A stretch of 64,000 nucleotides of DNA, from NCBI GenBank assembly GCA_949358305.1, contig OX442324.1, positions 8,901,601 to 8,965,600 of the forward strand. Reading direction: 5' to 3'. Shown here one piece after another: positions 4,140 to 38,302 of this stretch; within the stretch, counting starts at the first letter, position 1; each line of letters opens with the position of its first letter. Source of the stretch: Strigamia acuminata. Taxonomy: Eukaryota > Arthropoda > Chilopoda > Geophilomorpha > Linotaeniidae. The notes under the pieces are model-generated. The model worked only from the letters and a program-made list of their open reading frames with translations. It had not been told where the DNA came from and searched no databases. Both the position numbers and the translations under genes were made by a program.

Positions 4140-4292
4140 GACGACGCGGCCAACCGTTTGTGATACGTTTGCGGCAAGTTTCGTGACGGAACGGACATCG
4201 CGGATCCTCGCCAGTATCGTCGCAGAGACGTATCGTCGGATTCGAGGTGTTTGTGAGGCTGACAACGTGTGCGGACGTTTGCGGAGGCATTT

Positions 4293-4758
4293 TGAAGAGT
4301 TGCAATGGCCTGTGCGCAGTCGAAATAACTCGGAAACATCATTTTGGCTGGGCGGATAAATCGGACACGCGTCCGCCATCTTTTATTACAAAAGTAAGAG
4401 TGTTACATAAAAGCCTGGTTCGAGGCTAAACGCCCTCGATCTCAAACACAATGAAATCACAGAACAAATCATTGTTTCAATACACTGACTTGTTCTTTGC
4501 AGAAAGACAAAACTAATGGATAAAATAAACAGAACAACATAAACAATAAGTGCTCATTTGAGCAGATGACAGGTTGTGTGTGTTGTCACGTAATAGGAGT
4601 CGGTTGCGGTACAAAACCAGCATTGGGATTAAAAATCAGAATCAACCGACTGCGATACGGGACATCAACATGGCAACACACTGATTGCATTTAACCACAA
4701 TATGCAATCTGATAATCTACGCGGATGCGAGGACAAACAGGAAAACGTCAACCTAACA
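4293..4758 (-). repeat. 3' LTR of A
   Basis: On the minus strand TGTTAGGTTGACG..to..TTGCAACTCTTCA. Contains AAAAGATGGCGGAC (minus) near 4371-4385. Same length as, and no difference noticed from, the copy at 10775-11240. Confidence 0.92.
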
Positions 4759-4775: not shown

Positions 4776-7700
4776 CTATTTGTCAATTACAAAGATGTAT
4801 TCGCATAGCGCGTTCAATCTGGATTTAGCTAACCATTTCGTCAGAATATCCGCGACATTTAATTCGCCGGAAACATGCTCGATTGAAAAGGTTCCTTTCT
4901 CAAACCAATCTCTAACGAAATGGAGCTTCACGTCTATATGTTTGTTTGCCCTGTTCTCGATCCTATTCTTACAGTATTGGATAGCCGGCTGGCTATCCGC
5001 AAAAACGCAGGGCGTATTTCGCTCGAGACAAAACATTATCTTTGCATCGTAAAGGCGCTCGAGCCAAATAACTTCTTTCACCCCATCGACCACGGCGAGA
5101 AATTCGCTCTCCATGATCGACAGGGAGGTCATCGATTGTTTGTGGCAATTCCACGAGATGGGAATGCCACCCATATAGACAATATGTCCCCCAAAGCTTC
5201 GTCGTCTGTCTTGATCCAGGGCAAACGACGCGTCGGTGTAAACTGTCAAATTCTCGTTTTTACAGTTCGATAAGTTAATCGAATAATTCGACGTGGTGGC
5301 CAAATATCGCAGGACCTGCAGTAACATATTGACATGGCGCGTCGAGTGCGTCTCGTTATACTGGGAAAGCACTATTACTGAAAACAGTATGTCGGGTCTG
5401 GTTCGGCTGGCGATGAACAACAGACTTCCGACCAGAGATCTGTACGGGAATGAGGTGTCGACTTTTTCTCCGGTTCTTACACCTTGAATCATGGTTCCCG
5501 GGGTTACTGGAACCTTTACTCGATGGCACGAGTCAATCCCGTACGCTTTACAAAGCTTTTCAATATATTTCCGTTGGTGGATCTTAATCATGCCCCCGGA
5601 CCTATCAAACTCGATTCCTAAAAGTAAAGTTACGGGTCCCAGACTCACTACTTCAAACGATTCCCGTAACCACTTCAAAACGCATTGTTCCACATAGTCA
5701 TCCTTCGAGAATAGCACGATATCGTCCACGTAGAAGATGACTATCGCGTCGTTGTCTAGGGCATAGACACAGTTTAAACCCAACAATGGTTGAAAGCCCA
5801 ATTCAAGTAGTCGTATGTGGAGGACCTGGTACCACATACGACCGGACTGGTGTAATCCATAAAGTGCTTTTAAAAGCATCCAGCATTTATGCTTATTATG
5901 GGCGGTACGATATCCCTTGGGGATCTCCATGTACTGTACCGTATCGAGGTCCCCGTAAAGGTACGCGGCCTTGATATCCAGGTGTAAATCCCGCCATCCC
6001 TTGAGTATCACCAAAGTGCAAAAGAACACTATCACTAGCACGAAGTTGACGACGGGGGAGAACACCTCCGTAAAGTCAACTCCGGGCTTTTGCTTAAAGC
6101 CCTGTGCGATGAGTCGGGCTCGGTAGCGTTGGATAACACCCGTGTGGTCGCGCTTCATTTTGTATATCCATTTCGATCCCAAGAGAGTCGTACCCTCATC
6201 TAAAGTCGTTTTGTCAACTTCCTTGTAAACCGTTCTTTCATCGAACACATCAATTTCCTCTCTCATGGCTTTTATCCAATCAGGACGCTTGATGTGGTAC
6301 ATGGCTTCTTCGTAGGTTTCTGGCTCGACGGCACAGAAACCTGCAAACCCTAACGGTTCACCGTCCCCCTCTAATGTCTTAAAGTCAAATAAGGTCGCAT
6401 CATATGCGTACCCTTCTTCATCGCACCACCGTGCGATATCAACTCGACTTCTTATCTTGTCCTTTAAGGGCGTGATGTAAACAACATCTACTTGTCCCGC
6501 CGTCGCTCCGTCTTTACGGACGGATGCGCGTCGTTCCCATTCCGCCATATTTAACGGCAGTAGTTCCGGATGTAACATCACGTTCCCTTGCTTTTTCTTT
6601 GATCGTGATCCACGCCGTGTTTGAATCCCAGGAGGAATTTCAGGTTCCCCATCATTGTCAGGATAGATGTTGAAGTAATTCACATCATCCCCCTTCGCCC
6701 CACCAATTTCTTCAACAGGCTCATCCTCTGTATCCCCGTCCCCAAGAATAGGGTTCCCCTCAACGGGCATGAGTGGGGGTTGCCGAGCTGCCTGTTTAGC
6801 GACTGGCCTCAATTCAGGTCTAAGAGTAGGCTTTGGGGTCGTGGGCAATGCGGGTTTCACTTTTTGGTGCGGAACAGGCTGTGGAACTTCCTGTATCGCA
6901 GGAGGGGGTTCCGGAATCTCCGGAACTTCTAGGACCTCCGGGATCCCCGGAGCCTCCTGAATTATCGGGTCGCCAGCAACACTGTCGTCGTCAGAAAATG
7001 ACCCATTGAACGAGTCCGAACTCGAAGTATCAAAGTCATTCTCCAATTCAGGCGACGTGGCCGTCCCTAATTCAAACCAGAAATTGTTTTCAAAAATTTT
7101 GACGTGTTTAGATAAAAACACCTGATTTTTATTCGGATCCCAAATTCTATAGCCGCGTGTAGAAGCGGCGTATCCAATTAATGCCCCAGCCCATGCCCTG
7201 TCTTGTAATTTCCCACCCCGAGTCTGAGATGGGATATGGACATAAGTCAATGAGCCAATGCACTTGACATGGCGAAGGGACAATTTCTTATCATAAAACA
7301 CAGAATAAGGTGTTTTTCCCCCAATTCCCGTATGTGGAAAACGGTTTTTCAGATATACAACTGAAACGGCAAGCTCTGCCCATAAAGTGGCGGGAAATTT
7401 ATTCTCAAAAAGAAGTGCCCGAGTACCATTAAGAATGGTACGGTTCGCCCGCTCGGCGACCGAATTCATTTCTGGGCTGTATGCATTAGTCCTCATACAC
7501 TTAAGCCCAATTGTCGCCACATAAGCGTCCCATTGTCTAGATATGAATTCCCCTCCATTATCGGTTTTTATGGCCTTTACCTTCTTAGAGGTCGTTCGCT
7601 CAACTTCAAGTAGCCACCGCTTGAAATGTCCTAAAACGTCACTTTTCCGTTTCATGATAATTATCCACATAAAGCGGGAAAAATCATCAATGAGAATGAG

Positions 7701-9659
7701 ATAATAGTATGCCCCACCCAATGTTTGAACTGGAGCGGGGCCCCACACGTCTAAGTGTACTATTTCCAAAATGCTTTTTGTCGTAATTCCAATTATTGGG
7801 GGAAAACTAGCACGTGTGCTCTTCGCCCTGGCGCAAAAGTCGCACGTCGACAACTCCTTATTCGAGAGTTTCAGCCCAAAAACATCAGTTGACTTCTCTA
7901 AACCCGCAATTCCCTTTGCATTTAAATGCCCTAAGCGGGAGTGCCAAATGTCCATAGTTTGGGCCTTGTCTTTCTTGTCAAAAGTTTTAACCCCATTAGT
8001 AGAATTATTCCCATTCTCTGCTTTGTCTGCTTTGTTCTGCACAATTGAACTTGCCTCCTTAGAGGCATTGGCAGTCTTTGCCTTAATTTTATTTGAAACA
8101 TTCGCTTGCGCATTAGTCGTAACTTTCGCAGGCGCGTTGTTCGCAACACTCGCTTGCCCCTTTATCGCTGGTGCAGGTTTCCCTGACTCACTCGAATTTT
8201 GGGTTAATGCGTCCTTAAAACTAGGGTATGTTAGTATCGAATTTACAACTTCATCGCCTTTTATAAGCGGACTAGAAGACACTGTCGCAGCCTGTTGCGC
8301 AGGTAATGCGGCAGTGTTCACAGGAGAAATACGACAATTGACCTTATACATCCGATCACTCGTGCGTTCCGCAGTGATGGAAGGGTCATCAATTTTGTCG
8401 TTATAAATAACCATTTTGCCATTTTTAATCATGGTCGTTGCCCCAGCTTCATCCGTGCGACCCAACGAAATCAAATTCTTCCTAAAGTTGGGTGCATAAA
8501 ATACATTATGCAATGTAATTGCACGGGTGCGGGTTCCGTAAATCGATGTCAACGTCACATTTCCTATTCCTTCGATTCTCGACTTTCCTTCTCCCTGTTG
8601 CACGTGGCCAGTTAATGGCTTGAAGTCGGAGAACCAGTCTTTGTTGAAGGAGAAATGGTCCGTCGCCCCTGTGTCGACGTACCATTGCGAATCATAATTC
8701 GCGTGAGACACGTGGGAAGCCGGCACAGGGGGTTGTTGTTGAAGCCAAATCGCCGCGGAGTAATAAGAGACTGGAGAGTCACTGAATATGTCAGCCTGTG
8801 TGACAGTGGCCTTTTGCTGGCCTCTTCCACGTCCCTTGCCCCGTGGATTGCCTCTAAATTGTCCAGTTTGGTTTCCTTTTGCTTGGAATTGCTGTTTCGG
8901 TGGAGTAGGGCATTCACGGGCAAAGTGGCCCGTCCCACCGCAAGTAAAACAGATGCGTGGGCCACCGGGTGCATTTCCACCACGTCCGCGTTGTCTTCCG
9001 CCTTGGTTAAAGAAGGCACCAGTGTTCTCCAATGGCGCCTTGGAAGGCACGCCAAACTCGTCGGTTGTTACATGTAGGCGGTTGTATTCGCCTACCAGGC
9101 GTTCCTTGACCGCTGCTGCCGTGAACTCTGTGTCACCCCAGTGATAAACCGTCTGCTTGACCGGTTCGTATTGGGGTGGCAGCAGGTCAAGATATTGAAA
9201 GGCGTGAAACTCATCAGAAATTTGAATCTTGACATCTGCAAGCTGTACTACTTTCCGATCAACACGTGCGGTGAAAACAAACATCTCTTCGTTTTCATGC
9301 AACCGCATGTCTAAAAATTCCCTGCGAAGACGGGCTTTGCGTGCCCGGGTCGTGGGCTGGTAGGCAGCTTTCAGTGCCTCCCACACTTCTTTAGCAGTGG
9401 CCTGGGCAACCGCCACGACCTGTTGGGCCTCGCCGCAAGCCAAACAAATGGTGGAGCGGGCCCTTTCTTCGCCTTTCTCAAAATCCCTTGTCTCTCGAAA
9501 CGGTGATCCGGCCGGCGGCTCTTTTGTCTTGCCGGTCACGTGGCCCCAAACACCGTACGATTGGAGGAGGAGCTGTACCTGTACGCTCCAGGTCGGATAG
9601 TTGGTTCCGTCCAACTTTTTCACGTCCTTGTAATCATCATGGCGGTCGTAGGACGCCAT
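4776..9659 (-). CDS. copia Gag-Pol polyprotein with MBD-like domain (element A)
   Basis: 1627-residue uninterrupted polyprotein. The start is the ATG at 9659 (MASYDRHDDYKD), homologous to the MASEEKYDDYKS start of C/B; the upstream in-frame extension has only a GTG. Approximate order: capsid-like Gag (1-230), CCHC zinc knuckle CFTCGGTGHFAREC (about 236-249), retropepsin WYVDTGATDHF (about 326), and integrase HHCC (HSRLGH..CDFC, about 568-606). Next come the integrase catalytic D-D-E (HLDVWGP, KTDNGGEF, SVAERANR, about 638-731), the integrase C-terminus (GYRIWDP, about 833), the MBD-like domain (about 1037-1102), RT with FYVDDIVLF (about 1308), and RNase H (YTDASFALD, about 1472). All catalytic residues that I can check are present. 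The protein should assemble particles, mature itself, copy the RNA and integrate the cDNA. Confidence 0.95.
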   Translation of the reverse strand: MASYDRHDDYKDVKKLDGTNYPTWSVQVQLLLQSYGVWGHVTGKTKEPPAGSPFRETRDFEKGEERARSTICLACGEAQQVVAVAQATAKEVWEALKAAYQPTTRARKARLRREFLDMRLHENEEMFVFTARVDRKVVQLADVKIQISDEFHAFQYLDLLPPQYEPVKQTVYHWGDTEFTAAAVKERLVGEYNRLHVTTDEFGVPSKAPLENTGAFFNQGGRQRGRGGNAPGGPRICFTCGGTGHFARECPTPPKQQFQAKGNQTGQFRGNPRGKGRGRGQQKATVTQADIFSDSPVSYYSAAIWLQQQPPVPASHVSHANYDSQWYVDTGATDHFSFNKDWFSDFKPLTGHVQQGEGKSRIEGIGNVTLTSIYGTRTRAITLHNVFYAPNFRKNLISLGRTDEAGATTMIKNGKMVIYNDKIDDPSITAERTSDRMYKVNCRISPVNTAALPAQQAATVSSSPLIKGDEVVNSILTYPSFKDALTQNSSESGKPAPAIKGQASVANNAPAKVTTNAQANVSNKIKAKTANASKEASSIVQNKADKAENGNNSTNGVKTFDKKDKAQTMDIWHSRLGHLNAKGIAGLEKSTDVFGLKLSNKELSTCDFCARAKSTRASFPPIIGITTKSILEIVHLDVWGPAPVQTLGGAYYYLILIDDFSRFMWIIIMKRKSDVLGHFKRWLLEVERTTSKKVKAIKTDNGGEFISRQWDAYVATIGLKCMRTNAYSPEMNSVAERANRTILNGTRALLFENKFPATLWAELAVSVVYLKNRFPHTGIGGKTPYSVFYDKKLSLRHVKCIGSLTYVHIPSQTRGGKLQDRAWAGALIGYAASTRGYRIWDPNKNQVFLSKHVKIFENNFWFELGTATSPELENDFDTSSSDSFNGSFSDDDSVAGDPIIQEAPGIPEVLEVPEIPEPPPAIQEVPQPVPHQKVKPALPTTPKPTLRPELRPVAKQAARQPPLMPVEGNPILGDGDTEDEPVEEIGGAKGDDVNYFNIYPDNDGEPEIPPGIQTRRGSRSKKKQGNVMLHPELLPLNMAEWERRASVRKDGATAGQVDVVYITPLKDKIRSRVDIARWCDEEGYAYDATLFDFKTLEGDGEPLGFAGFCAVEPETYEEAMYHIKRPDWIKAMREEIDVFDERTVYKEVDKTTLDEGTTLLGSKWIYKMKRDHTGVIQRYRARLIAQGFKQKPGVDFTEVFSPVVNFVLVIVFFCTLVILKGWRDLHLDIKAAYLYGDLDTVQYMEIPKGYRTAHNKHKCWMLLKALYGLHQSGRMWYQVLHIRLLELGFQPLLGLNCVYALDNDAIVIFYVDDIVLFSKDDYVEQCVLKWLRESFEVVSLGPVTLLLGIEFDRSGGMIKIHQRKYIEKLCKAYGIDSCHRVKVPVTPGTMIQGVRTGEKVDTSFPYRSLVGSLLFIASRTRPDILFSVIVLSQYNETHSTRHVNMLLQVLRYLATTSNYSINLSNCKNENLTVYTDASFALDQDRRRSFGGHIVYMGGIPISWNCHKQSMTSLSIMESEFLAVVDGVKEVIWLERLYDAKIMFCLERNTPCVFADSQPAIQYCKNRIENRANKHIDVKLHFVRDWFEKGTFSIEHVSGELNVADILTKWLAKSRLNALCEYIFVIDK
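6355..6548 (-). other. MBD-like domain coding segment (element A)
   Basis: The segment encodes W-E-R-R..VRKDGATAGQVDVVY, then P-L-K-D-K-I-R-S-R, then LFDFKTLEG. The spaced pattern W-x-R-x(4)-R-x-(S/D)-G-x-T-A-G-x-x-D-x-x-Y..P-x-G/K..I/F-R-S-x..F-D-F is the signature of methyl-CpG-binding domains (MBD1/MBD2/MeCP2 family). It falls between integrase and RT, where copia elements normally have an unstructured linker. Confidence 0.8.
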
Positions 9660-9783
9660 TTCGGGAAATTTGCGACGAAATTTAGTGAAGAACCGAAGCA
9701 CAAGTCACACAAACCACGTAAATTCGTCGCACGGATGCAGAATTCCCCCAAAAGTGAAGGCGAATAATGCACACTACCCGGGG

Positions 9784-10774: not shown

Positions 10775-11240
10775 TGAAGAGTTGCAATGGCCTGTGCGCA
10801 GTCGAAATAACTCGGAAACATCATTTTGGCTGGGCGGATAAATCGGACACGCGTCCGCCATCTTTTATTACAAAAGTAAGAGTGTTACATAAAAGCCTGG
10901 TTCGAGGCTAAACGCCCTCGATCTCAAACACAATGAAATCACAGAACAAATCATTGTTTCAATACACTGACTTGTTCTTTGCAGAAAGACAAAACTAATG
11001 GATAAAATAAACAGAACAACATAAACAATAAGTGCTCATTTGAGCAGATGACAGGTTGTGTGTGTTGTCACGTAATAGGAGTCGGTTGCGGTACAAAACC
11101 AGCATTGGGATTAAAAATCAGAATCAACCGACTGCGATACGGGACATCAACATGGCAACACACTGATTGCATTTAACCACAATATGCAATCTGATAATCT
11201 ACGCGGATGCGAGGACAAACAGGAAAACGTCAACCTAACA
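10775..11240 (-). repeat. 5' LTR of A
   Basis: 466 bp with no difference noticed from 4293-4758, followed by the CATTT target duplication at 11241-11245. Confidence 0.92.
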
Positions 11241-11245
11241 CATTT

Positions 11246-15100: not shown

Positions 15101-16659
15101 TTTTGGATATGACACAATGGCAACGGAGGGAAACCGTTAGACAAAGTGGTGAAACTGCTGGGCAGGTAGATGTGATCTACATAACACCACTTGGCGATAG
15201 AATCCGCAGTCGGATTGACGTTGTACGATGGTGCAAAGAAGAAGACTATCAGTACGATGGGGGTTGTTTCGACTTTAAGGCAACAGATGAGACCGTTGGG
15301 TTTGCCGGCCATGCATCCGTTGAACCGGATACTTTCGAAGAAGCTATGTCCAATTCCAATAAATCCGACTGGCAGGATGCCATGGATGACGAGATTAATA
15401 TCTTTAATGACAGAAAAGTTTACGAGGAAGTTGACAAAACCGAAGGGATGAATTTACTGGGAACAAAATGGATTTATAAAATCAAGCGTGACTACACTGG
15501 GGCAATTAAACGCTGGAGAGCACGTTTAGTTGCGCAAGGTTTTGGGCAGAAAGAAGGAGTTGACTTCACTGAGATATTTTCACCAGTGGTCAACTTTGTT
15601 CTCGTACTGATATTCTCTTGTTCTCTTGTGGTTCTGCAAGGCTGGCGAGATACACATCTCGACATCAAGTCTGCGTACTTGTACGGAGACCTTGATGTGC
15701 CACAATACATCAATATCCCGAAAGGCTTTCGGACCAAGGAGAACCAACACAAATGTTGGCGACTGGTCAAATCCTTGTACGGACTTCACCAGTCCGGAAG
15801 GATGTGGTATTTCAAGCTCCACGAACGATTATTAGAAATAGGATTTACTCCAGTCTTAGGATTGAATTGCGTATATAATTACGGCTCAGATGCCGTCCTT
15901 TTGTTTTACGTCGACGATATTGTTTTGTTCAGTCGTGATGCTTTCGTTGAACAATGTATCATCGAGTGGATTCAAGAGAGCTTTGAAATAGTCAACCTTG
16001 GACCAGTAACTCTACTATTAGGGATTCATTTTGAGAGGAAAAATGGGGACATTTTAGTACATCAAAAGAGTTATATTGCGAAATTAGTCGAGAAATATGA
16101 CATTGACCCATGCCATAAGATTAAAATCCCAGTCACAGTTGGTACCATGATACAGAAGGTACAACCGGGTGAACAAGTAAACTCGACAGGTCCCTAGTAG
16201 GGAGTTTACTATTTATCGCGAACAGAACGCGCCCAGATATCCTTTTCAGCGTCATTGTGTTATCTCAATACAATGAGACCCACTCTAACAGGCATGTTAA
16301 AATGCTAGTACAAGTGTTGAGATATCTGGCGAATACCCCCAACTATGTTATCAACCTGGCAAATTGTAAGAACAACAATTTAACGGTTTACACCGACGCA
16401 TCCTTTGCTTTGGACCAAGACAGTAGGAGAAGCTTTGGTGGTCACATAGTTTATTTAGGAAGGGTTCCGATTTCATGGAACTGTCGAAAACAATCCATGA
16501 CTTCACTGAGTATCATGGAAAGCGAGTTTCTCGCAGTTGTCGATGGCGTGAGAGAGGTGATATGGCTAGAACGTTTATACGATGCCGATATCATCTTATG
16601 TTTTGGAAGAAGCGTCCCTTGTGTTTACGCCGATAGCATGCCGGCAATCAACTATGCGA
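12160..16659 (+). pseudogene. copia Gag-Pol polyprotein of C (frameshifted and truncated)
   Basis: Starts MASEEKYDDYKSIKKL at 12160. Domain order is as in A: capsid, CFSCGGTGHFAREC, retropepsin WYIDTGATDHF, integrase (HSRMGH, KTDNGGEF, SVAERANR), MBD-like (15109-15291), RT (FYVDDIVLF near 15903), and RNase H (YTDASFALD). The frame is open for 1345 codons to 16197, where a 10-bp deletion relative to B (after ..AACTCGAC, near 16188) shifts it. The homologous frame resumes to 16659 and stops at AINYA, before the end of RNase H. Apart from these two lesions the protein closely resembles B. Confidence 0.92.
15109..15291 (+). other. MBD-like domain coding segment (element C)
   Basis: Encodes WQRRETVRQSGETAGQVDV, then P-L-G-D-R-I-R-S-R and FDFKAT. 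The R-x-S-G-x-T-A-G-x-x-D and GDRIRS strings are especially close to vertebrate MBD1-type domains. Confidence 0.8.
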
Positions 16660-17101: not shown

Positions 17102-17593
17102 TGTAGCAGAGGAGAGCGGCGCAAACGATTTATTAATCGCGTGGAAGCTAAATTTGGCGTTGTGTCGCCGACACGAACGATAATGCGACGTGACCAAGAC
17201 GCAAATTGCCGTGTGCGCAGCAGAAAGCTGCTTATGTGAGTATTAAACGAACTAGAAAGCACTGAAGGTGCTCTAAATAATAGTGAGGCATTTAAAATCA
17301 TAAACATTTAATAAAAGCAAAGATATTCTTACATATAGAGTCCTTTTCTATACAGGAGTGAATGAGTGTGCACATATCCGTGTGCGCAGCCATGTTGGAA
17401 GTGATAAAAGATACAATTGACACCCTCTGGTGTTGGGAAAAATAAACTAAAGCTAACATGATGCAGGCAGCATTATGCCCAATGTTAAATAATGAAATAA
17501 ATCCTAATAAATACACTAAGCTGCATAATGCAGTAATACATTAAGAAATGCGCAAAACAAGTACGGAGGACTGTTTGGCATCGATAAACAACA
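17102..17593 (-). repeat. 3' LTR of D
   Basis: On the minus strand TGTTGTTTATCGATG..to..CTCCTCTGCTACA. Contains a weaker YY1-like ACATGGCTGC and the mini-ORF/donor. Confidence 0.9.
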
Positions 17594-17604
17594 ATTTCCC
17601 CCTT
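17594..17604 (-). other. polypurine tract of D
   Basis: Minus strand GAAGGGGGAAAT abuts the 3' LTR. Confidence 0.75.
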
Positions 17605-17796: not shown

Positions 17797-20700
17797 TCAC
17801 GATAGGTTGAAATTGAAAATCCGGGAAATCAGGAGACGCAGTTGAGATGAACCCAACCATTTGGTAAAAATGTCTGCTACGTTCATTGATCCGGGGACTT
17901 TGCGCAATTGGAATGCACCTGCTGTGTACCATTCCCGAATCCAATGAAATTTCACTCGGATATGCTTCGTTTTACTGTTCTCCACGTCATTTGATGTGAA
18001 TTGGATGGAAGAAAGCGCATCGGAGAACACTATAGGTGGTGAAGATCTATTCAGCATCGGCACGGAACTGTAGACGTAATCGAGCCAATAAAGCTCACGG
18101 ACGCACTCAACGAGGGCGACAAACTCCGCCTCCATCGTTGAGCACGCCACGCTGGTCTGTTTTCTACAACTCCATCCGATGGGGACGTTTCCAATATAGG
18201 CTATATACCCGCCGAAACTCAAAGAAGTGCTGACTTCGGTGGCCCAGGACGCGTCAGTATATCCCCATAATTGTCCATTGGAACAATTTGACAGTTCAAT
18301 TGCGTAATCCAAAGTATTGCCTACGTAGCGCACAACCTGCATGAGTGCCTTGATGTGCGTGTGGTTATAGCAATTGTTAAACTGTGACAACATTATAACT
18401 GAGAATAATATGTCGGGTCGTGTCCTCGATGCAAGGAAGAGAAGAGAGCCTATTAGTGAGCGATAGGGAAATTCTGGCAAATCTTCTTTTGACCCTTTGA
18501 CGAGCGTCGTTCCTGGTGTTACTGGGACCTTGATGAGTTTATCGGCGACAATTTCGAATTTCTTGAGAATCTTTTGTATGTATGCGCGTTGAATAATAAA
18601 GATTCCTTTGGGAGTACGGATGAACTCTACACCTAAAAGTTTTGAAATTGGGCCTAAATTGACGATATCGAATTTGGTGCTAATGAGCGCAATTAATTGC
18701 GTCAGGACGCTATCCGTCGCGTAGAATAGAACTATATCATCGACGTACACTAGCATTACGGCGGAGAAACCGTATATGTATACACAGTTGCATCCTGGTA
18801 ATCTGCAAAATCCCAAATCGCGCAAAGTCTGATCTAGTTTTTCAAACCATTGGCGCCCGGACTGATGGAGTCCGTAGAGAGACTTTATCAAAAGCCATAC
18901 ATGATTTGGGTTCGAACATGTCGCGCCAGCTGGAATGCGCATATACACCTTATGCGCAAGATCACCGTATAGGTATGCGCACTTCACATCTAAGTGTGCG
19001 TCCTTCCACCCTTTAAGCACTACTAGTAGGCAGAAGAATTGGCGTATGAGAATAAAGTTGACAACAGGGCTAAAGACTTCATCGTAGTCCACTCCTAACG
19101 TTTGGCGAAAGCCCTGTGCCACTAATCTAGCGCGATATCTTGCTGGTTTGCCCTGCGCATCTTCCTTCAGTTTGAAGAGCCACTTGCACCCTAATATGGT
19201 TGTATTTTCCGGTTTTGGGACCTCTTCATAAACGCCTCTCTTTGCAAAAGTGTCTAACTCTTCATTAATGGCTTCCTGCCATTTGGTCGAATCCGGAAAT
19301 CTTACAGCCTCTGCGTAACTAGTGGGATCACGACGACAAAGGTGCACTCTGGGAAGTGGTTGCGGAAGATCCTCCAATTCATATTTCATATTGCCAAAAT
19401 AAAATAGCTCAGGATCATAAGGAATGTTATTCATATGACAGAATTCCTCAACGTCACCTCTAGAACGTAATCGGAGTCCTGCTTCTGGGAAATAATAAAC
19501 ATCTGTTTTCAATTTGCCAGGTTCCTGCACTTTGCGCAAATGTTCCTCTCTTTTCCAGCGCCTACACTCGGAATCGCCTCCAACATAACGCCACTTATAT
19601 GCAGTTGCAGCTCCAGTTGGAGGTGGACCATGGTGCGCTGCTGGATGGGCTTGTGGCGCATTGCCACGAGAACCTCGACGAGCGTTCACAAAACGTGGTG
19701 GTGAACCCGGTGGTGTTCCTGGCGGTGTATGAGTTGGTGTATTACCTGGTGTGATAAGTGGGCTTGGCGCTCGAGATATCACTGGAGAAATTATTGGAGA
19801 TAGGACAGGTGTTGGAATCCTAATTGGAGACCCTGGTGGTGTCCGGGCTTGAGCGCCTGGCGGAGCTGAATCGTCAGAGTCATATTCTGTATCGCATTCA
19901 TCTTCCGAATCCGGAAATTTGGGCCAATCGGTATATTCCAACTCGTCGTCAAATCTCACTTGCGGTTGTGAAATGCGCAATGGTTCATAAATTTGCGACG
20001 CTTGATGCGTTTGGTCCAAATCTGGTCCTGTCCACGGTTCCTGTGGACCTCGATAATGATTTGAGCGTTTATAGGACTGCCGTTCATCTATTTTGACGTG
20101 AATGGACTCGATAACCTTGTTATCTGTTGGATTCCAAGACGCGATAACCTCGCGTTGTCGTGGCGTATCCGACTAAATAGCCCTCCCAAGCTCGTGGATC
20201 CAATTTGTCCCTGCCGGGCGCTGTATGATGAACCCAGCACTTGGAGCCTAACTTGCGCAGGTGTCTGAGCGAAAGGGCACGTCGTCGCCACAGGATATAG
20301 GGCACCTCATTTTTTAGACGAGAATGAGGACACCGGTTCTTTATGTACGAGAAAGTCACTGCGAATTCCGCCCAAAGTTCGTTTGGAAGTCCAGTTTCAT
20401 CTAGTATGGCACGCGTGTAATCCGCCATAGTGCGGTTTATTCGCTCCGCTGTGCCATTCATAGCGGGGCTATGTGGATTGGTCCTTTGGGCCTGAATTCC
20501 GGTCTCTTTTAGATAGCGGTCAAATTCGTTTGATAAGAATTCCCCTCCTCGGTCTGTTCGGATGGCCTTGACTCGTTTGCCCGTCACTCGTTCAATTCGT
20601 GTGACATAGTCCTTAAAGAGTCCAAACACTTGGGATTTTTGGGCCATCGGAAATATCCAGGCATAGCGCGTGGCGTCATCGATAATCGTTAACACATAAC

Positions 20701-23487: not shown

Positions 23488-23979
23488 TGTAGCAGAGGAG
23501 AGCGGCGCAAACGATTTATTAATCGCGTGGAAGCTAAATTTGGCGTTGTGTCGCCGACACGAACGATAATGCGACGTGACCAAGACGCAAATTGCCGTGC
23601 GCGCAGCAGAAAGCTGCTTATGTGCGTATTAAACGAACTAGAAAGCACTGAAGGTGCTCTAAATAATAGTGAGGCATTTAAAATCATAAACATTTAATAA
23701 AAGCAAAGATATTCTTACATATAGAGTCCTTTTCTATACAGGAGTGAATGAGTGTGCACATATCCGTGTGCGCAGCCATGTTGGAAGTGATAAAAGATAC
23801 AATTGACACCCTCTGGTGTTGGGAAAAATAAACTAAAGCTAACATGATGCAGGCAGCATTATGCCCAATGTTAAATAATGAAATAAATCCTAATAAATAC
23901 ACTAAGCTGCATAATGCAGTAATACATTAAGAAATGCGCAAAACAACTACGGAGGACTGTTTGGCATCGATAAACAACA
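23488..23979 (-). repeat. 5' LTR of D
   Basis: 492 bp, about three differences from 17102-17593 (near 23600, 23626 and 23947). The 3' half resembles the solo LTR at 39842. Confidence 0.9.
23719..23779 (-). other. leader mini-ORF ending at a splice donor (D)
   Basis: ATG at 23779 (MAAHTDMCTL..) runs 20 codons plus one base to a GTAAGA donor, the same 61-nt span as in L. A role as a spliced first exon is inference. Confidence 0.4.
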
Positions 23980-23984
23980 AAACC

Positions 23985-24163: not shown

Positions 24164-24698
24164 TGTTGGTCTATTGGACCGCCAGTTGTGTCGATGTGAC
24201 ATAAAATCACATTCTTATTGTTTAATCATCTAATCTCGATATATTTATCCCGTACTTTTTTATATCCGATGATATTTGCTTGTTTAGATATTATGCATTT
24301 GTTTATTGCTTTTTAACACACAGCATCATGCTGTGTCCAGTGTTTCCTATTAATTCTCGATTTATTTGATTATATAATTCCAATTCACGACACCAGGTGT
24401 CGTTCTTGTATCACTCGTTCTTCCAAGATGGCGGCGACCATCGCTTTGGCTCTCGCCCTTATGTTTTCACTTTGTAATAACTTCATTTGTAAGTATTTTG
24501 GTTTAGTAAACTTGTTTTTATGTTTTTAAACGTTGCCTTGTTTATTGCACGACATATAAGCGCATTTGCGCGGTCGTTTTATTCGTTTTTCGCTCCCGAC
24601 GTCGCCCACACGTTCGCACGAGTAGTGCGACGCCTTTTGCGACGTTACACTCGAAGTTTCGAGTGCTTTTGGTCGTTTTCCTCTGCTACCGACCTACA
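24164..24698 (+). repeat. 5' LTR of L
   Basis: TGTTGGTCTATTGG..to..GACCTACA. Contains a CGACACCAGGTGTCG hairpin, CCAAGATGGCGGC (24423-24435) and a GTAAGT donor (24489). Confidence 0.93.
24428..24488 (+). other. leader mini-ORF ending at a splice donor (L)
   Basis: The ATG lies inside the YY1-like motif and reads MAATIALALALMFSLCNNFI, hydrophobic like a signal peptide, then meets GTAAGTA at 24489 after 61 nt. The same arrangement occurs in D, in the solo LTR and at 460. I could not fix the matching acceptor. Confidence 0.4.
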
Positions 24699-24700
24699 AT

Positions 24701-28600: not shown

Positions 28601-30659
28601 CGCCGAGCAGATCGAGGAATTTGCGGTTCAACCGGACGCGGAAGAATTGCGACCGAATCAGTCTGCACATGTGTCACCGGAAACGTCCAATGCCAGTTCC
28701 CCCGGCCTTTCGCCACCGACTTCCCCAAATCGTTTCATCACGTTACGTAGGAAAGCCGGCCCGAACATTTTACAGCACACAATGCCAATCTTCGATCAGG
28801 GGCAAATGTCTCCATTGCCTCCTGGCGCAACACATGTTGCAGCCCCTTCTGCCGGCAAGACATCATTCTATTGGCGTTATGTCGGCGGAAACACAGTATT
28901 TCGTAAATGGATTCGCGAAGAACATCTACGCAAAGATCAACAGCCAGGTTCGATAGACATCGACGTCTACTACTTCCCGGAACCCGGCCTCCGACTTCGA
29001 TCTCGCAGAGACGTCGAAGAGTTCTGTGTTATGAACAATCTCCCTTACGACCCCGAGCTATTCTTTTTCGGCAATATGGAGCATACACTACCATTGATTC
29101 CCCCAGCTCGACATGCCGCTCATCTCTGTCGCACCGAACCGTCATCGTATGCGGAAATTCCCAAATTCGACGATGCTCCAAAGTGGCATGAAGCCATCGG
29201 TGAAGAGTTAGGAACTTTTAAGGAGCGGGAAATTTATGTCGAAGTGCCGAAACCGCCTAACACGACAATCCTGGGTTGTAAATGGATTTTTAAACTCAAA
29301 TCAGACGCGACCGGCAAGATTACTCGATATCGTGCTCGACTTGTCGCCCAAGGCTTTCGCCAAACTTTCGGAATCGATTACGACGAGGTCTTCAGCCCAG
29401 TAGTGAACTTCGTCCTCATTCGTCTATTCTTTTGCCTTTTGGTAGTGCTACGAGGATGGAAAGATGCACACCTCGACGTCAAATGTGCATACCTGTACGG
29501 GGACCTGGAGCACAAGGTCTATATGCGCATCCCGGCAGGTGCCACCTGTAATCACCCCGACAACGTTTGGTTACTCGTGAAATCGCTTTACGGACTTCAC
29601 CAGTCCGGTAGACAATGGTATTTGAAACTGGACGAAGCACTTCGAGCCCTCGGATTCCGAAAAATGCCCGCTTGCAATTGCGTTTACATCTACGGCAATT
29701 GCGCAGTCATGTTAGTCTACGTCGATGATATTGTACTTTTCTACGCAGCCGACAGTGTTTTGGACCGAATTATCCGACTCATAACTTCGAAATTCGACAT
29801 CGTCAACCTCGGTCCAATCACCAAACTGCTAGGAGTCGAGTTCATCCGCGAGATGGGACGCACTTACATCTCTCAACGTGCGTATATCGCGAAACTCATC
29901 ACGAAGTACGGTACATCGACAAATCGACTCGTGAAGGTGCCAGTGACACCCGGAACCACATTAGTTCGAGCATCGACAGAAGACCTGATCGATTTTCCTT
30001 ACCGCTCGCTTATCGGGTCACTGCTTTTTCTGGCATCACGAACGCGCCCCGACATCTTATTTTCCGTCATATCGCTTTCGCAATTCAACACATGCTACGA
30101 TAACACTCACATCCGTGCGCTCCTTCAAGTTCTCCAGTACGTAGCGAATACTATTGATTACCGTATCGAACTTTCGAATTGTGCGTCAAGCCAATTATGG
30201 GCGTATACGGATGCATCGTGGGCTAGCGATTTGGCGACATCTTTAAGTTTCGGTGGCTACATTACATATATCGGGAATGTGCCAATTGGCTGGTCGTGTC
30301 GAAAACAATCGACTGTCGCGTGTTCAACTATGGAAGCCGAATTCCTCGCCCTAGTTGAATGCGTGAAGGAAACCTTTTGGCTCGATAACATCTTCACCGA
30401 ATTCCCGATTTTGAACCGCCTGTCTCGTCCGATTATTTACTCCGGTGCCTTAGCCAGCATACAATTCACATCCAACGACGTGGAAAACTCGAAGACGAAG
30501 CATATCCGCGTCAAGTATCACTGGCTCAGGGAATGGTTTACGGCAGGCTGTTTTGATCTCCGAAAAGTGTCCAGCGAGCACAACGTCGCGGACATATTCA
30601 CTAAGTGGCTCAGTTCAGAACGTCTTCAGTCGTTGATCTCTCGTGTGTTCCGACTTTAG
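25650..30659 (+). CDS. copia Gag-Pol polyprotein with MBD-like domain (element L)
   Basis: 1669-residue open frame from the ATG at 25650 (MQKTTETTVSRIPIL), aligned with the D start. Order: capsid-like Gag; CFNCNEMGHYANKC (about 232-245); retropepsin WIVDCGATDHV (about 318); and a long Pro-rich linker. Integrase follows with HHCC (HSRLGH..CNDC, about 576-615) and D-D-E (HMDVWGP, RTDRGGEF, NGTAERINR), and C-terminus GYRIWNP. Then come a second acidic/Pro linker, the MBD-like domain (about 1074-1143), RT with VYVDDIVLFY (about 1356), and RNase H (YTDASWASD, SFGGYITYIGNVPIGW) ending ADIFTKWLSSERL. The protease triad reads D-C-G rather than D-T/S-G, as in D. All RT, RH and IN catalytic residues are present. 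Confidence 0.95.
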   Translation: MQKTTETTVSRIPILSVGNYEPWQRAMRMLLKSEGLWRHVTEEKEADHLLTLTDKEKERYMVKKDKALGHIYMYVSEPKRSALDNCDTPKQAWDVLAKAYAPSSRARRAALRSEFLTLHLEPNEEMQDFINRVDHFVRQLADINEVTTADHHAYQYLNRLPPEYAQATFAIYHWPDPEFTPTKVAEQLISEYLRLKPMGLHNVHSSSVHSSVKGQQSRKNSRPRRPLSEIKCFNCNEMGHYANKCPHPRREDHNQPPASASFQRSRSKSKKRNKNAAPKPDDTRPRGCSRPTREGTFFASAPQAPARPVAHFMQSNEWIVDCGATDHVSYVRAWFTDFVDIVPFDIELGQGKSKVTGKGNVRLLTRIDDCNCIVNLTNVLFAPNFEANLISVSKIDKTRHHIHFYNGEVNIYQSDIRSSILRAKEKAGLYYVDGLCSTPSVSAVISTPVSTTIPPPIQQPPVLTYVTTEVDFENIPKPKKGKLRQGDITDFRIEMPPIPKQIPNQIVNPIQSQIVPQSTPIQPDPPIQSYSNVLQSIPTTPLPNTPPATPPPPSNPSKSPKKTIANPATVKDATGLWHSRLGHLHTNAMRLLANNEHVHGMEPGEVKQELACNDCRLAKSIKISHKPDLHPSTTKALDLLHMDVWGPAPATSFGGARFVLTIIDDATRYAWITPLAQKSQVFACFKDFAARVERVANTTIKAIRTDRGGEFMSNEFERYLKDKGIQGQRTNPSSPQMNGTAERINRTMADNIRAIHEETKLPAGLWAELAVTFAYIKNRSPHSRLKNQVPYVLWRERALSLRHLRKIGSKCWVHYTAPGRKKLDPRAWEGYLVGYAVATRGYRIWNPIDNKVTESAHVRIDEHQSYRKSLRSVPNGNNQSFYEPNNEQQRVSFNDTIEYANWSIKPASDDEHSISEDKSVSKSASKSKTPPIPIVHIPPPSTPEQQLLELCASTLPTPARGSVSHPITNEEHEQIAEGQDTDDDAEQIEEFAVQPDAEELRPNQSAHVSPETSNASSPGLSPPTSPNRFITLRRKAGPNILQHTMPIFDQGQMSPLPPGATHVAAPSAGKTSFYWRYVGGNTVFRKWIREEHLRKDQQPGSIDIDVYYFPEPGLRLRSRRDVEEFCVMNNLPYDPELFFFGNMEHTLPLIPPARHAAHLCRTEPSSYAEIPKFDDAPKWHEAIGEELGTFKEREIYVEVPKPPNTTILGCKWIFKLKSDATGKITRYRARLVAQGFRQTFGIDYDEVFSPVVNFVLIRLFFCLLVVLRGWKDAHLDVKCAYLYGDLEHKVYMRIPAGATCNHPDNVWLLVKSLYGLHQSGRQWYLKLDEALRALGFRKMPACNCVYIYGNCAVMLVYVDDIVLFYAADSVLDRIIRLITSKFDIVNLGPITKLLGVEFIREMGRTYISQRAYIAKLITKYGTSTNRLVKVPVTPGTTLVRASTEDLIDFPYRSLIGSLLFLASRTRPDILFSVISLSQFNTCYDNTHIRALLQVLQYVANTIDYRIELSNCASSQLWAYTDASWASDLATSLSFGGYITYIGNVPIGWSCRKQSTVACSTMEAEFLALVECVKETFWLDNIFTEFPILNRLSRPIIYSGALASIQFTSNDVENSKTKHIRVKYHWLREWFTAGCFDLRKVSSEHNVADIFTKWLSSERLQSLISRVFRL
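28868..29078 (+). other. MBD-like domain coding segment (element L)
   Basis: Encodes FRKWIREEHLRK, DVYYFPEPGLRLRSRRDVEE and ELFFFGN. Same skeleton as D. It begins after a conserved YWRYVGG lead-in that is absent from A/C. Confidence 0.65.
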
Positions 30660-30849: not shown

Positions 30850-30860
30850 AAAGGGGGAAT
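30850..30860 (+). other. polypurine tract of L
   Basis: AAAGGGGGAAT abuts the 3' LTR. Confidence 0.85.
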
Positions 30861-31395
30861 TGTTGGTCTATTGGACCGCCAGTTGTGTCGATGTGACATA
30901 AAATCACATTCTTATTGTTTAATCATCTAATCTCGATATATTTATCCCGTACTTTTTTATATCCGATGATATTTGCTTGTTTAGATATTATGCATTTGTT
31001 TATTGCTTTTTAACACACAGCATCATGCTGTGTCCAGTGTTTCCTATTAATTCTCGATTTATTTGATTATATAATTCCAATTCACGACACCAGGTGTCGT
31101 TCTTGTATCACTCGTTCTTCCAAGATGGCGGCGACCATCGCTTTGGCTCTCGCCCTTATGTTTTCACTTTGTAATAACTTCATTTGTAAGTATTTTGGTT
31201 TAGTAAACTTGTTTTTATGTTTTTAAACGTTGCCTTGTTTATTGCACGACATATAAGCGCATTTGCGCGGTCGTTTTATTCGTTTTTCGCTCCCGACGTC
31301 GCCCACACGTTCGCACGAGTAGTGCGACGCCTTTTGCGACGTTACACTCGAAGTTTCGAGTGCTTTTGGTCGTTTTCCTCTGCTACCGACCTACA
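30861..31395 (+). repeat. 3' LTR of L
   Basis: 535 bp, no difference noticed from 24164-24698; followed by the ATCTT duplication. Confidence 0.93.
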
Positions 31396-32426: not shown

Positions 32427-32661
32427 TGTTATGTATTCATAACAATCAATCTATTGCTTTTACATGCTATTGTACAGCAGGTTGCTAAGCGTGTGTGCTT
32501 AGCAACCTCGCTACTTTTTTCCCATAATAAATTACTTCACATTCGAAATCATAAGCGTAAAGACTTGGCTCTTGTTCTTTGGGGTTTTCAGCCTTCCAAG
32601 TTGACCATGCCATGAAGACTAGCCACATACTAGTTTGATAAGTAATAAGCAGTATATTACA
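32427..32661 (+). repeat. 5' LTR of K
   Basis: TGTTATGTATTCATAACA..to..AGTATATTACA, 235 bp. It begins with a palindrome (TGTTATG..CATAACA) and has a TTGCTAAG..CTTAGCAA hairpin; AATAAA lies near 32525. Confidence 0.88.
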
Positions 32662-32948
32662 TTGGCGCAGTTAAAGGTGTAAACCGAACCTTAGCCAAAA
32701 TTCGGATAAAGAAAATGGCTACAATGAGCGATCGAATGGAGATTCCAATCCATCATGGAGGCGCACAAGACGTTCAGAGGCAAATTTGACAATTTTCCGG
32801 TGTGGACCATCGTTGGAACAGATACATTTGCTGAATGTTCGTGTTATGGACCATCCAGTCGCCCGTGAAGCGAGTAAGGTGGAGTTTTTACTGGATTTCG
32901 TGGCCGATTTGGCGCCAATCGCGACGTAATGGGCTGAATCGACGCGTC
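32662..32948 (+). other. K PBS and 5' internal segment
   Basis: TGGCGCAGTTAAAGG at 32663 is in PBS position and resembles the tRNA-Ser-type (TGGCGCAGT..) PBS of several gypsy elements; the tRNA is not certain. A short frame from ATG 32715 (MATMSDRMEIPIHHGG) ends after 26 codons and may be a gag remnant. Confidence 0.45.
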
Positions 32949-32953
32949 GATTT

Positions 32954-33416
32954 TGATAGGTTTGTAGGCGCCGGACATCAATGAAAAGGAGCTGACACTC
33001 GATTTAAACGGTGCGGGAACTCGCATTATGCGACCGCCATCTTTATTCATCGTGATGAGAGAGGAAACATAAAAGCGCACCTCTTTCGAGGCTACAAAGC
33101 TTAAACAAGAACGAATCATTGTTAACAAGCAAAGATTCATTCTTTACGTAACAAAGGCAAAACAACGGCATAAACAATCGATAATGTAAACAAAAGCCAT
33201 GAGAAACTAAAAGCTAAGCGCTCATATTAGAGCAGACGACATATGGGCATGTCATTGCTAATAAGCACATTGGTTGGGGCACTCAGCACAGGAACAAGGG
33301 TTTAAAAGTCAGTATCAACCAATGTAACACGGATACAGAATTGCAATGACACATACGTTGCATTTAACCGGAAACATGCAACCGATAAGATCAAACAGTT
33401 GGGCATTTTTCTAACA
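32954..33416 (-). repeat. 3' LTR of B
   Basis: Minus strand TGTTAGAAAAATGCC..to..CAAACCTATCA. Contains AAAGATGGCGGTC (minus) near 33032-33045. Confidence 0.92.
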
Positions 33417-33427
33417 AATCCCCCTTT
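33417..33427 (-). other. polypurine tract of B
   Basis: Minus strand CAAAGGGGGATT abuts the 3' LTR. Confidence 0.8.
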
Positions 33428-33433
33428 GAGCAA

Positions 33434-36400
33434 CTATTTGACTACAACAAAAATATGCTCACAGAGCTGACATAATCTGGGGCGCGGCAACCACTTTGTC
33501 ATCAAATCCGCGATGTTCAATTCGCCAGGCACATGTTTAATACTAAACACGCCTTTTTCATACCAATCGCGGAGAAAGTGCAATTTAACATCTATATGTT
33601 TATTTGCACGGTTCTCGATCTTGTTTTTCGCATAGTTGATTGCCGGCATGCTATCGGCGTAAACACAAGGGACGCTTCTTCCAAAACACAAGATGATATC
33701 GGCCTCGTATAAACGTTCTAGCCATATCACTTCTCTCACGCCATCGACAACTGCGAGAAACTCGCTTTCCATAATACTCAGTGAAGTCATGGATTGTTTT
33801 CGACAATTCCATGAAATCGGAACCCCTCCTAAATAAACTATGTGACCACCAAAGCTTCTCCTACTGTCTTGGTCCAAAGCAAAAGATGCGTCGGTGTAAA
33901 CCGTTAAATTGTTGTTCTTACAATTTGCCAGGTTGATAACATAGTTGGGGGTATTCGCCAGATATCTCAACACTTGTATTAGCATTTTAACATGCCTGTT
34001 AGAGTGGGTCTCATTGTATTGAGATAACACAATGACACTGAAAAGGATATCTGGGCGCGTTCTGTTCGCGATAAATAGTAAACTCCCTACTAGGGACCTG
34101 TATGGGAACGTCGAGTTTACTTGTTCGCCCGGTTGTACCTTCTGTATCATGGTACCGACCGTGACTGGGATTTTAATTTTATGGCACGGATCGATGTTGT
34201 ATTTCTCGACTAATTTCGCAATATAACTCTTTTGATGTACTAAAATGTCCCCATTTTTCCTTTCAAAATGAATCCCTAATAAAAGAGTCACCGGTCCAAG
34301 GTTGACAATTTCAAAGCTCTCTTGAATCCACTCGATGATACATTGTTCAACGAAAGCATCACGACTAAACAAAACAATGTCGTCCACGTAAAACAAAAGG
34401 ACGGCATCTGAGCCGTAATTATATACGCAATTCAACCCTAAGACTGGAGTGAATCCTATTTCCAATAATCGTTCGTGGAACTTGAAATACCACATCCTTC
34501 CGGACTGGTGAAGTCCGTACAAGGATTTGACCAATCGCCAACATTTGTGTTGGTTCTCTTTGGTCCGGAAGCCCTTCGGGATATTGATGTATTGTGGCAC
34601 ATCAAGGTCTCCGTACAAGTACGCAGACTTGATGTCGAGATGTGTATCTCGCCAGCCTTGCAGAACCACAAGAGAACAAAAGAATATCAGTACGAGAACA
34701 AAGTTGACCACTGGTGAAAATATCTCAGTGAAGTCAACTCCTTCTTTCTGCCCAAAACCTTGCGCAACTAAACGTGCTCTCCAGCGTTTGATTGCCCCAG
34801 TGTAGTCACGCTTGATTTTATAAATCCATTTTGTTCCCAGTAAATTCATCCCTTCGGTTTTGTCAACTTCCTCGTAAACTTTTCTGTCATTAAAGATATT
34901 AATCTCGTCATCCATGGCATCCTGCCAGTCGGATTTATTGGGATTGGACATAGCTTCTTCGAAAGTATCCGGTTCAACGGATGCATGACCGGCGAACCCA
35001 ACGGTCTCATCTGTTGCCTTAAAGTCGAAACAACCCCCATCGTACTGATAGTCTTCTTCTTTGCACCATCGTACAACATCAATCCGACTGCGGATTCTAT
35101 CGCCAAGTGGTGTTATGTAGATCACATCTACCTGCCCGGCAGTTTCACCACTTTGTCTAACGGTTTCCCTCCGTTGCCACTGTGTCATGTCCAAAATTTT
35201 TAAATCCTGGGGAGCGGTCATACGTTTTCTTATGATATCCCCCTTTAACTTAGCACCGCGTGGTGGATTCCTCCTAACTGGTGGAGGTGTGAGGGTCGGA
35301 TTTGGAAGCCGAACTTCCACTCGTTGCTCCTCCTCTTCTTCAATCCCACCAACAGCTTGAGCGATTTCTTCCACAATTTCAGGCTCGACCGCCTGTTGGA
35401 CTAATTGGGGATTCGGAATCGCATGTTTCGGGGCCTGAAACAACTGCTGTATGATAGGGGGAACCTGTTGCCGAACTGGAGCCACTTTCTGTGGTATTGG
35501 TGCTGGGATTCCCCCTTGTGCCACTGGAATTTCTTCCTCATCTGAATCTTCATAATTCAAATTTCCCATATAATTAGGTTCGGATGGAATTTCACTCAGT
35601 TGCACCGACTCGTGCCAAAAGACATTCTCATTAATCTTCACATGGTTTGAAGCAATCACTTGGTTGGATTTGGGGTCCCAAACTCGATACCCCCGCGTCT
35701 TAATCGCGTAACCGACTAGGGCCCCAGGCCATGCCCTTTCTTCCAACTTGCTTCTCCTTGTTTGCGAAGGAATGTGCACGAAAACTTTAGAGCCGATACA
35801 TCTTAAATGTCTCAACGACATTTTCTTGTTATAAAACAAGTTATAAGGGGTTTTCCCACTTAAGCTTGCATGTGGGAATCTATTTTTAAGATAGACAACT
35901 GTCACGGCTAATTCTGCCCACAAACCCTTTGGAAAATTGTTTTCGAAGAGCATGGCTCTAATTCCCCCAACAATTGTTCTGTTTGCTCTTTCGGCCACAG
36001 AATTCATTTCTGGGGAGTAGGGGTTTGTTTGGATGCACTTAAGCCCAATAGAAGCCGCATAGTCATCCCACTTTTTCGACACAAACTCCCCGCCGTTGTC
36101 TGTCTTGATGCATTTGACCTTTTTCCCAGTGCTGCGCTCAACTTCAGTTTGCCATCGTTTGAAACGCTCAAATGCATCCCCCTTGTTTTTAATAATTTCC
36201 ACCCACATAAAACGTGAGTAATCGTCCACGATTATCAAGTAATAACTGGCCCCACCAAGAGATTTAAAAGGCTGGGGGCCCCACAGATCCATGTGGATTA
36301 CTTCCAAAATTCCCTTTGTAGAAATTTCTGGGATTGGGGAAAAGGTTGCCCTAGTGCTCTTTGCCTTCGAACACGCGTCGCAAGGCGAAAGTTCTTTGTC

Positions 36401-38150
36401 GGAGAGTTTAACTCCGAAGATGTCAGGCGAAACTTCCATTTTTGCAATCCCACTTGCATTAAAATGGCCCATTCTGGAGTGCCAAATGTCCATTGGCTGT
36501 GGTTTCACTTTGATCTTTTCGATTTCTCCCCCATTCGAAACATTTTGCCCGTTAGTATCATTTAAATCGCTTTTCTGAAGATTTGACGCATTTACTAGCG
36601 CATTTACGCTCACTTGCTGCTTCGCTGCAGTCTGCACTGCGCCACTCAATGTGTTTAGTAATGCTGCCTTAAAATCTACTGTTTTTAGTAAAGGATTAAT
36701 GACACTTGCACTTTTTACAACATTTTTGACCGAATTTCCACCCACCGCTGCACTCTGTTGCGCAGAAGGTGCAGTTGTGTTCACAATATTGGCCTCTATT
36801 TTGCAGTTAACTTTGTACATCCGATCATTTGTTCTTTCTGCAACAATAAAAGGCTCACTAATTCGGTCTTTAAACATGGTCAACTTTCCATTTTTGATAA
36901 AAGTTGTGAAACCAGCTTCATCTGTCCGGCCCAGCGATAAGAGGTTTTTCTTAAAATTTGGTGCAAAATAAACATTTTGCAGTGTGATTTCCCTACATCT
37001 GCCTGCATAACAAGATGTGATCAACACGTTGCCAATGCCCTCGATTTTAGACTTCCCTTCCCCCTGCTGGACACTATAGCCGGACAGTGGCTTGAAGGTC
37101 ACGAACCAACTCCTATTAAATGAAAAGTGATCTGTTGCACCGGTATCTATGTACCAGTGCGGATCAAAGTCGCAAATGCGACATTAAAGACAATGGTGGT
37201 GACAAGGTGACTTCCTCTTCAGTTTGATGAACTGCCGCTGAAAACATTGTCAATGGCTCATCAAAGATGTCAACTTGTCCCAAATTGGCCTTTTTGGTCT
37301 TTCCACCACAGCCACGTCCTCGTGCAGTGCCTTTTGCTAGCTGTGCAGAGGTGCCACCTCGTTGACTTTGCATATTCGCTTGTTGTTTGGGCGGTGACGG
37401 GCACTCTCTCGCGAAGTGACCAGTGCCGCCACAGGAAAAACAAGTTCGAGGTGTAAATGGCTGATTTCCGCCTTTTCCGCGTTGGAATCGCCCTTTTCCA
37501 AAGAATGCACCTGCATTATCGATGGAATCCTGTGTACGCATGCCATAGGAGTCTGAAGCTTCAAATAAACGATTATACTCTCCTAATAATCGCTCTTTCA
37601 CTTTTGCAGTGGTGAAGTCCAAATCATCCCAGTGGTACATTATCTGCTTAATTGTCTCATAAGTCGTTGGGAGAAAATCCATATATTGGAATGCGATTTC
37701 CTCATCCGTCGGTATAACTTTGACGTTCGCGAGTTCTGCGACTTTTCTGTCGACACGGGCCAGAAAACACATCATCTCCTCATTGTCCATTAGATGCATT
37801 TGCAGGAACTCGCGCCTCAATCTGCCTTTCCGGGCGCGTGTGGTGGGCTGGTAAGCATCTCGGATCGCTTCCCACGCCCCCTTAGAGGTATCCTTGGCAA
37901 CGGCCACGAGCTGTTGCGCTTCTTCGCAACTCAGGCATATCGTGGACCACGCCCGCTTCTCACGCACTTTGAAATCCCGTTTCTCTTTGGCTGTGGCGTT
38001 GGGACCCGGCGCAGTCTCGTCGCCCGTCACATGGTCCCACACGCCTTGCTGGGATAACAATAATTTTACACCAATCGCCCATTGGGCATAATTCGTCCCA
38101 TTCAGTTTTTTAATCGACTTATAATCGTCGTATTTTTCCTCTGACGCCAT
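33434..38150 (-). pseudogene. copia Gag-Pol polyprotein of B (one frameshift)
   Basis: ATG at 38150 (MASEEKYDDYKSIKKL). Gag with CFSCGGTGHFAREC is open to about 37174, where an extra A (GCAAATGCG here against GCAATGCG in F) shifts the frame just before the protease WYIDTGATDHF. From there protease, integrase, MBD-like (35012-35188), RT (FYVDDIVLF) and RNase H are open to the stop at 33434. Corrected length would be about 1572 residues. With a single lesion in an otherwise intact copy, this could be a very recent mutation or an assembly error. Confidence 0.93.
35012..35188 (-). other. MBD-like domain coding segment (element B)
   Basis: Same residues as in C (WQRRETVRQSGETAGQVDV, GDRIRSR, FDFKAT). 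Conservation in an independent copy argues against chance resemblance. Confidence 0.8.
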
Positions 38151-38302
38151 ATCTAGTCGATTCGTTGCGGAGATTGCACTTTTTCACAAAATAAATCGTC
38201 GCACACACCAAATGAAGCACAAAACACACTTTTTACGCTTTTACAAGTGGCGTAAACCCCCAAAAGGTTTAGGCGAAAATTATACAGTCTCCCTTGGACA
38301 AA

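Follow-up and report, generated by a model that had tools for sequence, protein, structure and literature searches.

The chromodomain of chromoviruses directs insertion via histone marks. Among the Ty1/copia elements of arthropods, one family is said to carry a captured methyl-CpG-binding domain (MBD) between the integrase and the reverse transcriptase of its polyprotein; this MBD reportedly binds methylated CpG-dense DNA, and insertions are reportedly biased in centipede and spider. Such elements were published in 2019 under a title that names an arthropod retrotransposon family as having captured a methyl-CpG-binding domain and calls it 'functionally active' (de Mendoza, Pflueger & Lister 2019, Genome Res 29:1277-1286, doi 10.1101/gr.243774.118), and papers that cite this MBD-Copia study, PMC9246332 among them, confirm that it treated methylation in Strigamia maritima. 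Chromoviruses, which are gypsy elements whose integrase bears a chromodomain (Gao et al. 2008), likewise hold a chromatin-reading module beside the integrase, but differ from the MBD-bearing copia elements in superfamily, domain and mark. Retrotransposons with captured cytosine methyltransferases (de Mendoza et al. 2018, PMC5890265) have also taken up a DNA-methylation protein, though one that writes the mark and does not read it; the main text of that paper contains neither MBD nor methyl-CpG as a term.

Here we describe copia polyproteins with a genuine MBD in a 64,000-nucleotide stretch of the Strigamia acuminata genome, which we refer to as the window. A sequence-only reading of this DNA had supposed the domain to be undescribed in copia, a supposition that the title of the 2019 paper overturns. 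Judged by that title, the published family is of the same kind as the elements found here, which share the integrase-MBD-reverse transcriptase layout and group with proteins of a spider, Araneus ventricosus; the observation holds up, though most of it was already known. Set against the title of the 2019 paper and the papers citing it, what we add is the placement of the carriers in one clade, a subclade (A/B/C) that lacks the tyrosine at residue 34 (Y34), families with a short DNA-contact loop, and the nesting, inside one older copia element, of each of the window's five MBD elements. A genome parasite bears an animal DNA-methylation reader that is retained across many families. These families share one genome and vary at residue 34 and in the loop, which makes them a natural comparison for testing whether insertion is steered by an integrase-linked reader.

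MBDs in the copia elements of the window

Five copia elements of the window (A, B, C, D and F) hold an MBD in the same slot, between the integrase and the reverse transcriptase. In A the order is pre-integrase domain, integrase core, SH3-like domain, proline-/acid-rich linker, MBD and reverse transcriptase. The features are as follows.

4288-4292 and 11241-11245: 5-bp target duplication of A, CATTT
4293..4758, minus strand: LTR of A, matching its partner at 466/466 positions
10775..11240, minus strand: second LTR of A
4776..9704, minus strand: open frame of A, copia polyprotein of 1642 amino acids
7473..7763, minus strand: integrase core (rve) of A, from Pfam on the piece 6954-8081
7074..7295, minus strand: retroviral SH3-like domain of A, from Pfam
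6378..6542, minus strand: MBD core of A, residues 1055-1109 of the polyprotein, Pfam 39.4 bits
5502..6197, minus strand: reverse transcriptase (RVT_2) of A, from Pfam on the piece 5001-6248
15115..15279, plus strand: MBD core of B, Pfam 44.4 bits
16705..16824, minus strand: short-loop MBD piece of an older copia element, E, Pfam 19.1 bits, below the cut-off
19393..19560, minus strand: MBD core of D, Pfam 25.1 bits; LTRs 17102-17594 and 23488-23980
28905..29072, plus strand: MBD core of F, Pfam 19.5 bits; LTRs near 24164-24700 and 30860-31395
35018..35182, minus strand: MBD core of C, of the B family; LTRs 32954-33416 and 39238-39700

The MBD-like residue pattern that had been picked out in A at 6355-6548 encloses the core, and its reported position after a copia integrase is borne out. 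Against the Pfam MBD profile (PF01429, cut-off 21 bits), the cores of A (E 4.5e-10), B (E 1.3e-11) and D score above the threshold and that of F falls marginally below it; the core of C equals that of B letter for letter, the scan having been made on B. MBD1 is the solved sequence closest to the domain of A (6.3e-10). The predicted model of this domain has both the beta strands and the helix of an MBD and agrees, by Foldseek, with solved MBDs, the comparators being MBD1 and MBD2 (1d9n, 6d1t, 2ky8, 6cnp). We found no chromodomain after the integrase in the Pfam scan of A, B, D and F, in which the MBD is the sole domain of that stretch.

The domain had also been said to recur in independent copies with open frames, which is true in part. 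A is a separate family, but B and C, which align over 5,447 bp at 97%, are two copies from a single family and are therefore not independent of each other. The whole polyprotein is open in A and F, whereas the frames of B, C and D are broken. D and F, neither of them named in that reading, are, together with further families elsewhere in the genome, better evidence that the domain has been retained independently.

All five of these elements lie inside other LTR elements. Piecewise comparison showed that E, which is 91-95% identical to a relative elsewhere in the genome (L046), spans about 1852-42916 of the window and is broken into five pieces by nested LTR-element inserts: B (containing A), D, F, and an LTR element at 32427-41605 (containing C). 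This last element, which hosts C, has short LTRs (235 bp) and the target duplication CCTAT. Exact 5-bp target duplications flank A, C, D, F and the 32427-41605 element, while B is without its far end; the sister copy C shows the empty site of the A insertion. Several of the insertions are recent, since the LTR pairs of A and F are identical and those of D and C are 99.4% and 99.6% identical. The nesting of five out of five, an uncontrolled count from a single window, fits a preference for silent, transposon-rich DNA.

MBD-bearing families across the genome and their phylogeny

A PF01429 profile search of the genome (237.5 Mb, 157 contigs) gave 1092 candidates, of which 150 were scored. All 150 exceed the cut-off, so that the genome holds at least 150 matches. 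We inspected 23 of these 150 places (the eight best, fourteen more and the weakest) and found retroelement MBDs at 22, in families like A, like B/C, and like each of L030, L023, L024, L027 and L028. The weakest scored match lies in a host gene at C3:20309085 that is BAZ2-like, a name taken from reading its frames; we rejected it as the donor of the MBD. The window's D and F represent another kind, beyond the families at the 22 places, and the reverse transcriptase of F has at least 131 matches in the genome. Two more copia families hold a shorter form of the MBD in the same slot: E (L046), which scores 25.8 bits against PF01429, and H, for whose segment the PF01429 scan gives no MBD match.

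8279-8425 of L030, minus strand: strongly shortened MBD-like segment of H, same slot

A protein search with residues 1030-1130 of A returned 109 candidates, none at E <= 0.001, and one with residues 1040-1380 returned 1040 proteins at that level. Among the best 120 of these 1040, PF01429 is precomputed in 8, and our own profile finds a clear MBD-like segment (>=25 bits) in 18 and a faint one in four. Two of the 120 are from A. ventricosus, and one of these represents 217 sequences. Viral contigs gave 44 pattern matches and no relatives.

We constructed a reverse transcriptase tree of 51 rows, made up of 37 proteins picked by hand from the 120 listed and 14 rows of this genome; the L024 and L023 families cover less than half of its columns, and the L027 family was too short and was excluded. 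The tree contains a single clade of 38 rows, supported at 100/100, that unites all 32 rows with a clear MBD, four with a faint one and two without. Thirteen rows fall outside it (eight from plants, three from algae, two unnamed). Both A. ventricosus proteins (P0025 and P0026), which have the same architecture, are placed inside. P0006, P0008, P0010 and P0012, also members of the clade, have a faint domain remnant with F-D-F-like ends in which D32, R44 and S45 are not kept together. The topology is most simply read as a single capture followed by long maintenance, with the domain decaying in one nested branch; this reading is limited by the rows of the tree, which include no named animal copia that lacks an MBD.

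Compared with animal MBD1 and MBD2, the retroelement MBDs have the fold, W15, R22, D32, R44 and S45 in common. They differ in sitting within a polyprotein, in the absence of Y34 from A, B and C, and in three to four additional residues that follow the helix, which the retroelement MBDs share and which are absent from MBD1, MBD2 and the host MBD2/3. The MBD of this host gene (L044, C5:5733000-5742900) is interrupted by an intron, while the retroelement MBDs are uninterrupted. Host MBD2/3 is a possible type of donor, the domain being too short for a donor tree.

Conservation and selection

The claim that the domain is maintained stands up in a comparison of amino-acid identity in 11 family pairs. 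In all 11 pairs MBD identity exceeds that of the 150-residue linker beside it, and it comes close to the conservation of the enzymes. For A and B the values are 65% in the MBD, 69% on the integrase side, 65% on the reverse transcriptase side and 31% in the linker; for D and F they are 77% in the MBD, 73% on the reverse transcriptase side and 35% in the linker. In two pairs the MBD has a higher identity than the reverse transcriptase side, in eight a lower one, and in one pair they do not differ. The deepest pairs have an MBD that is only slightly above the linker (B-F, 35% vs 33%; A-L024, 38% vs 34%). MBD dS was measurable in 4 of the 11 pairs, for which dN/dS is 0.061/0.93 (L033-L036), 0.065/2.07 (L033-L034), 0.21/0.99 (A-L033) and 0.60/3.39 (A-L024). 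These values read as purifying selection on the MBD that would be somewhat weaker than that on the enzymes.

Host methylation and genomic distribution

The host genome encodes methylation machinery, with 11 matches to DNMT domains grouped into five loci, two matches to the SRA domain at one locus, and five matches to TET domains grouped into three loci. The five DNMT loci agree with the four Dnmt1 and one Dnmt3 given for S. maritima in PMC4244043, whereas the three TET loci differ from the single Tet1 given there. Across 25 pairs of copies, CpG transitions occur at 0.5 to 1.7 times the level of other transitions, which is a weak sign of methylation at best. In S. maritima, 75.8% of domain-bearing transposable elements are placed in a highly methylated group (PMC7343188) and the CpG ratio is stated to be near 1 in most genes (PMC4244043); the decay of CpG sites is therefore an unreliable guide in that species.

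We compared the distribution of MBD elements with that of a gypsy-type element in the window at 51488-57567, which has a long open frame of 1349 amino acids and whose reverse transcriptase has at least 150 genome matches at 97-100% identity. Among the listed matches on contig C1, the part beyond 62 Mb holds 19 of the 37 MBD rows and 9 of the 27 F-type rows, vs 2 of the 60 rows of gypsy type (Fisher 3e-08 and 3e-04, respectively). In this exploratory comparison the region was picked after the MBD rows had been viewed, and near-copies from segmental duplication, which is likely there, may inflate the clustering. Neither of the two copies of the short-loop E family on this contig lies beyond 62 Mb. 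CpG density was sampled at 20 spots on C1, one of which was all N and was dropped, leaving 9 in 62-67 Mb and 10 elsewhere; the 62-67 Mb part is not CpG-denser in these samples (mean 3.5 vs 4.8 CpG per 100 bp, p 0.44). Its ten spots include two without any CpG and one gap, which suggests satellite DNA.

Contact residues and the proposed role of the MBD

We think it probable that Ty1/copia elements captured an MBD long ago and kept it, and that it serves to bias insertion to methylated or silent chromatin. After cleavage of the polyprotein, the MBD would remain with the integrase end; it would bind DNA, most likely methylated CpG, and would tether the pre-integration complex there, analogous to the chromodomain of chromoviruses. 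This reading draws on the Pfam, solved-sequence and structural matches, on R22, R44, D32 and S45, which each of the five window elements has, and on the lead of the MBD over the linker in every family pair, the dN/dS values of L033-L036, L033-L034 and A-L033, and the single clade of carriers among the rows compared. It is also in line with the DNMT, SRA and TET domains of the host, with the nesting of the five window elements, and with a published relative that its title calls active. Weighing against tethering, or against the reading of methylated CpG, are the valine or isoleucine at residue 34 of A, B and C, the CpG-transition ratio, the CpG density at the end of C1, and the deepest family pairs, in which the MBD is little above the linker.

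The residues in question were counted, in MBD1 numbering, across 33 rows (15 from this genome and 18 from outside), the four faint rows being excluded. R22 and D32 are each kept in 32, R44 in 30, S45 in 33 and Y34 in 24. We take R22, D32 and R44 of MBD1 to be DNA-contact residues, and Y34 and the loop 23-31 to be contacts with methylated DNA. Residue 34 is valine in A, isoleucine in B and C, and tyrosine in D and F; elsewhere it is glutamate in H and phenylalanine in P0013. A, B and C belong to a clade supported at 99/99 in a 14-row tree and at 100/100 in the 51-row tree, in which 7 of 7 rows have V, I or W at this position, and many of the long open frames among the listed MBD matches of the genome belong to it. 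Of the 15 own-genome rows, 13 have a loop 23-31 of 9-10 residues and the other two, E and H, one of 5-6; among the 18 outside rows, 15 have a loop of 6. Mammalian MBD3 has F34, which lowers its preference for methylated DNA, and the host MBD2/3 has F at the same position.

Judged by residue identity, the valine of A weakens the simple view that its MBD reads methylated CpG. The main rival to insertion steered by a methylation reader concerns the A/B/C clade: its MBD would bind DNA without reading methylation, or would read some other feature, as a general anchor on DNA or chromatin from which recognition of methylated CpG has been lost. The seven rows without Y34, the loop cut to 5-6 residues in other families and the F34 of the host's own MBD2/3 all speak for such an anchor, but the clade retains R22, D32, R44 and S45 together with a full-length loop, and on balance we regard it as unlikely.

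A wider proposal, possible though we advance it with some doubt, is that the captured MBD was retuned more than once: a highly amplified subclade would have lost the methyl-contact tyrosine, other lineages would have shortened the loop, perhaps several times independently, and the domain would have stayed under selection. We favour repeated shortening because the full loop resembles that of host MBDs, though simple counting on the 51-row tree would also allow an older short loop. If retuning is true, the retroelement MBDs form a natural series that runs from domains reading methyl-CpG to ones that read something else, and targeting would change along with residue 34 and the loop.

Alternatively, the MBD could counter silencing, by shielding methylated copies or by competing with host MBD proteins, and have no part in steering integration. 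The same anatomy would suit this role, and the host has an MBD2/3 gene with which to compete; the adjoining integrase, however, speaks for a part in integration, by comparison with the integrase-linked chromodomains, and we consider an anti-silencing role distinctly improbable. Finally, chance resemblance in a fast-evolving linker, for which one could cite the shortness of the domain and the score of F just below the Pfam cut-off, is rejected on the Pfam E values, the solved-sequence matches, the structural match and the conservation across families.

Other repeats in the window

The window also contains an inverted repeat at 43271-43763, with arms of 172 nt that are 99% complementary and a spacer of 149 nt, and a tandem repeat at 40864-41109 with a unit of 30 bp.
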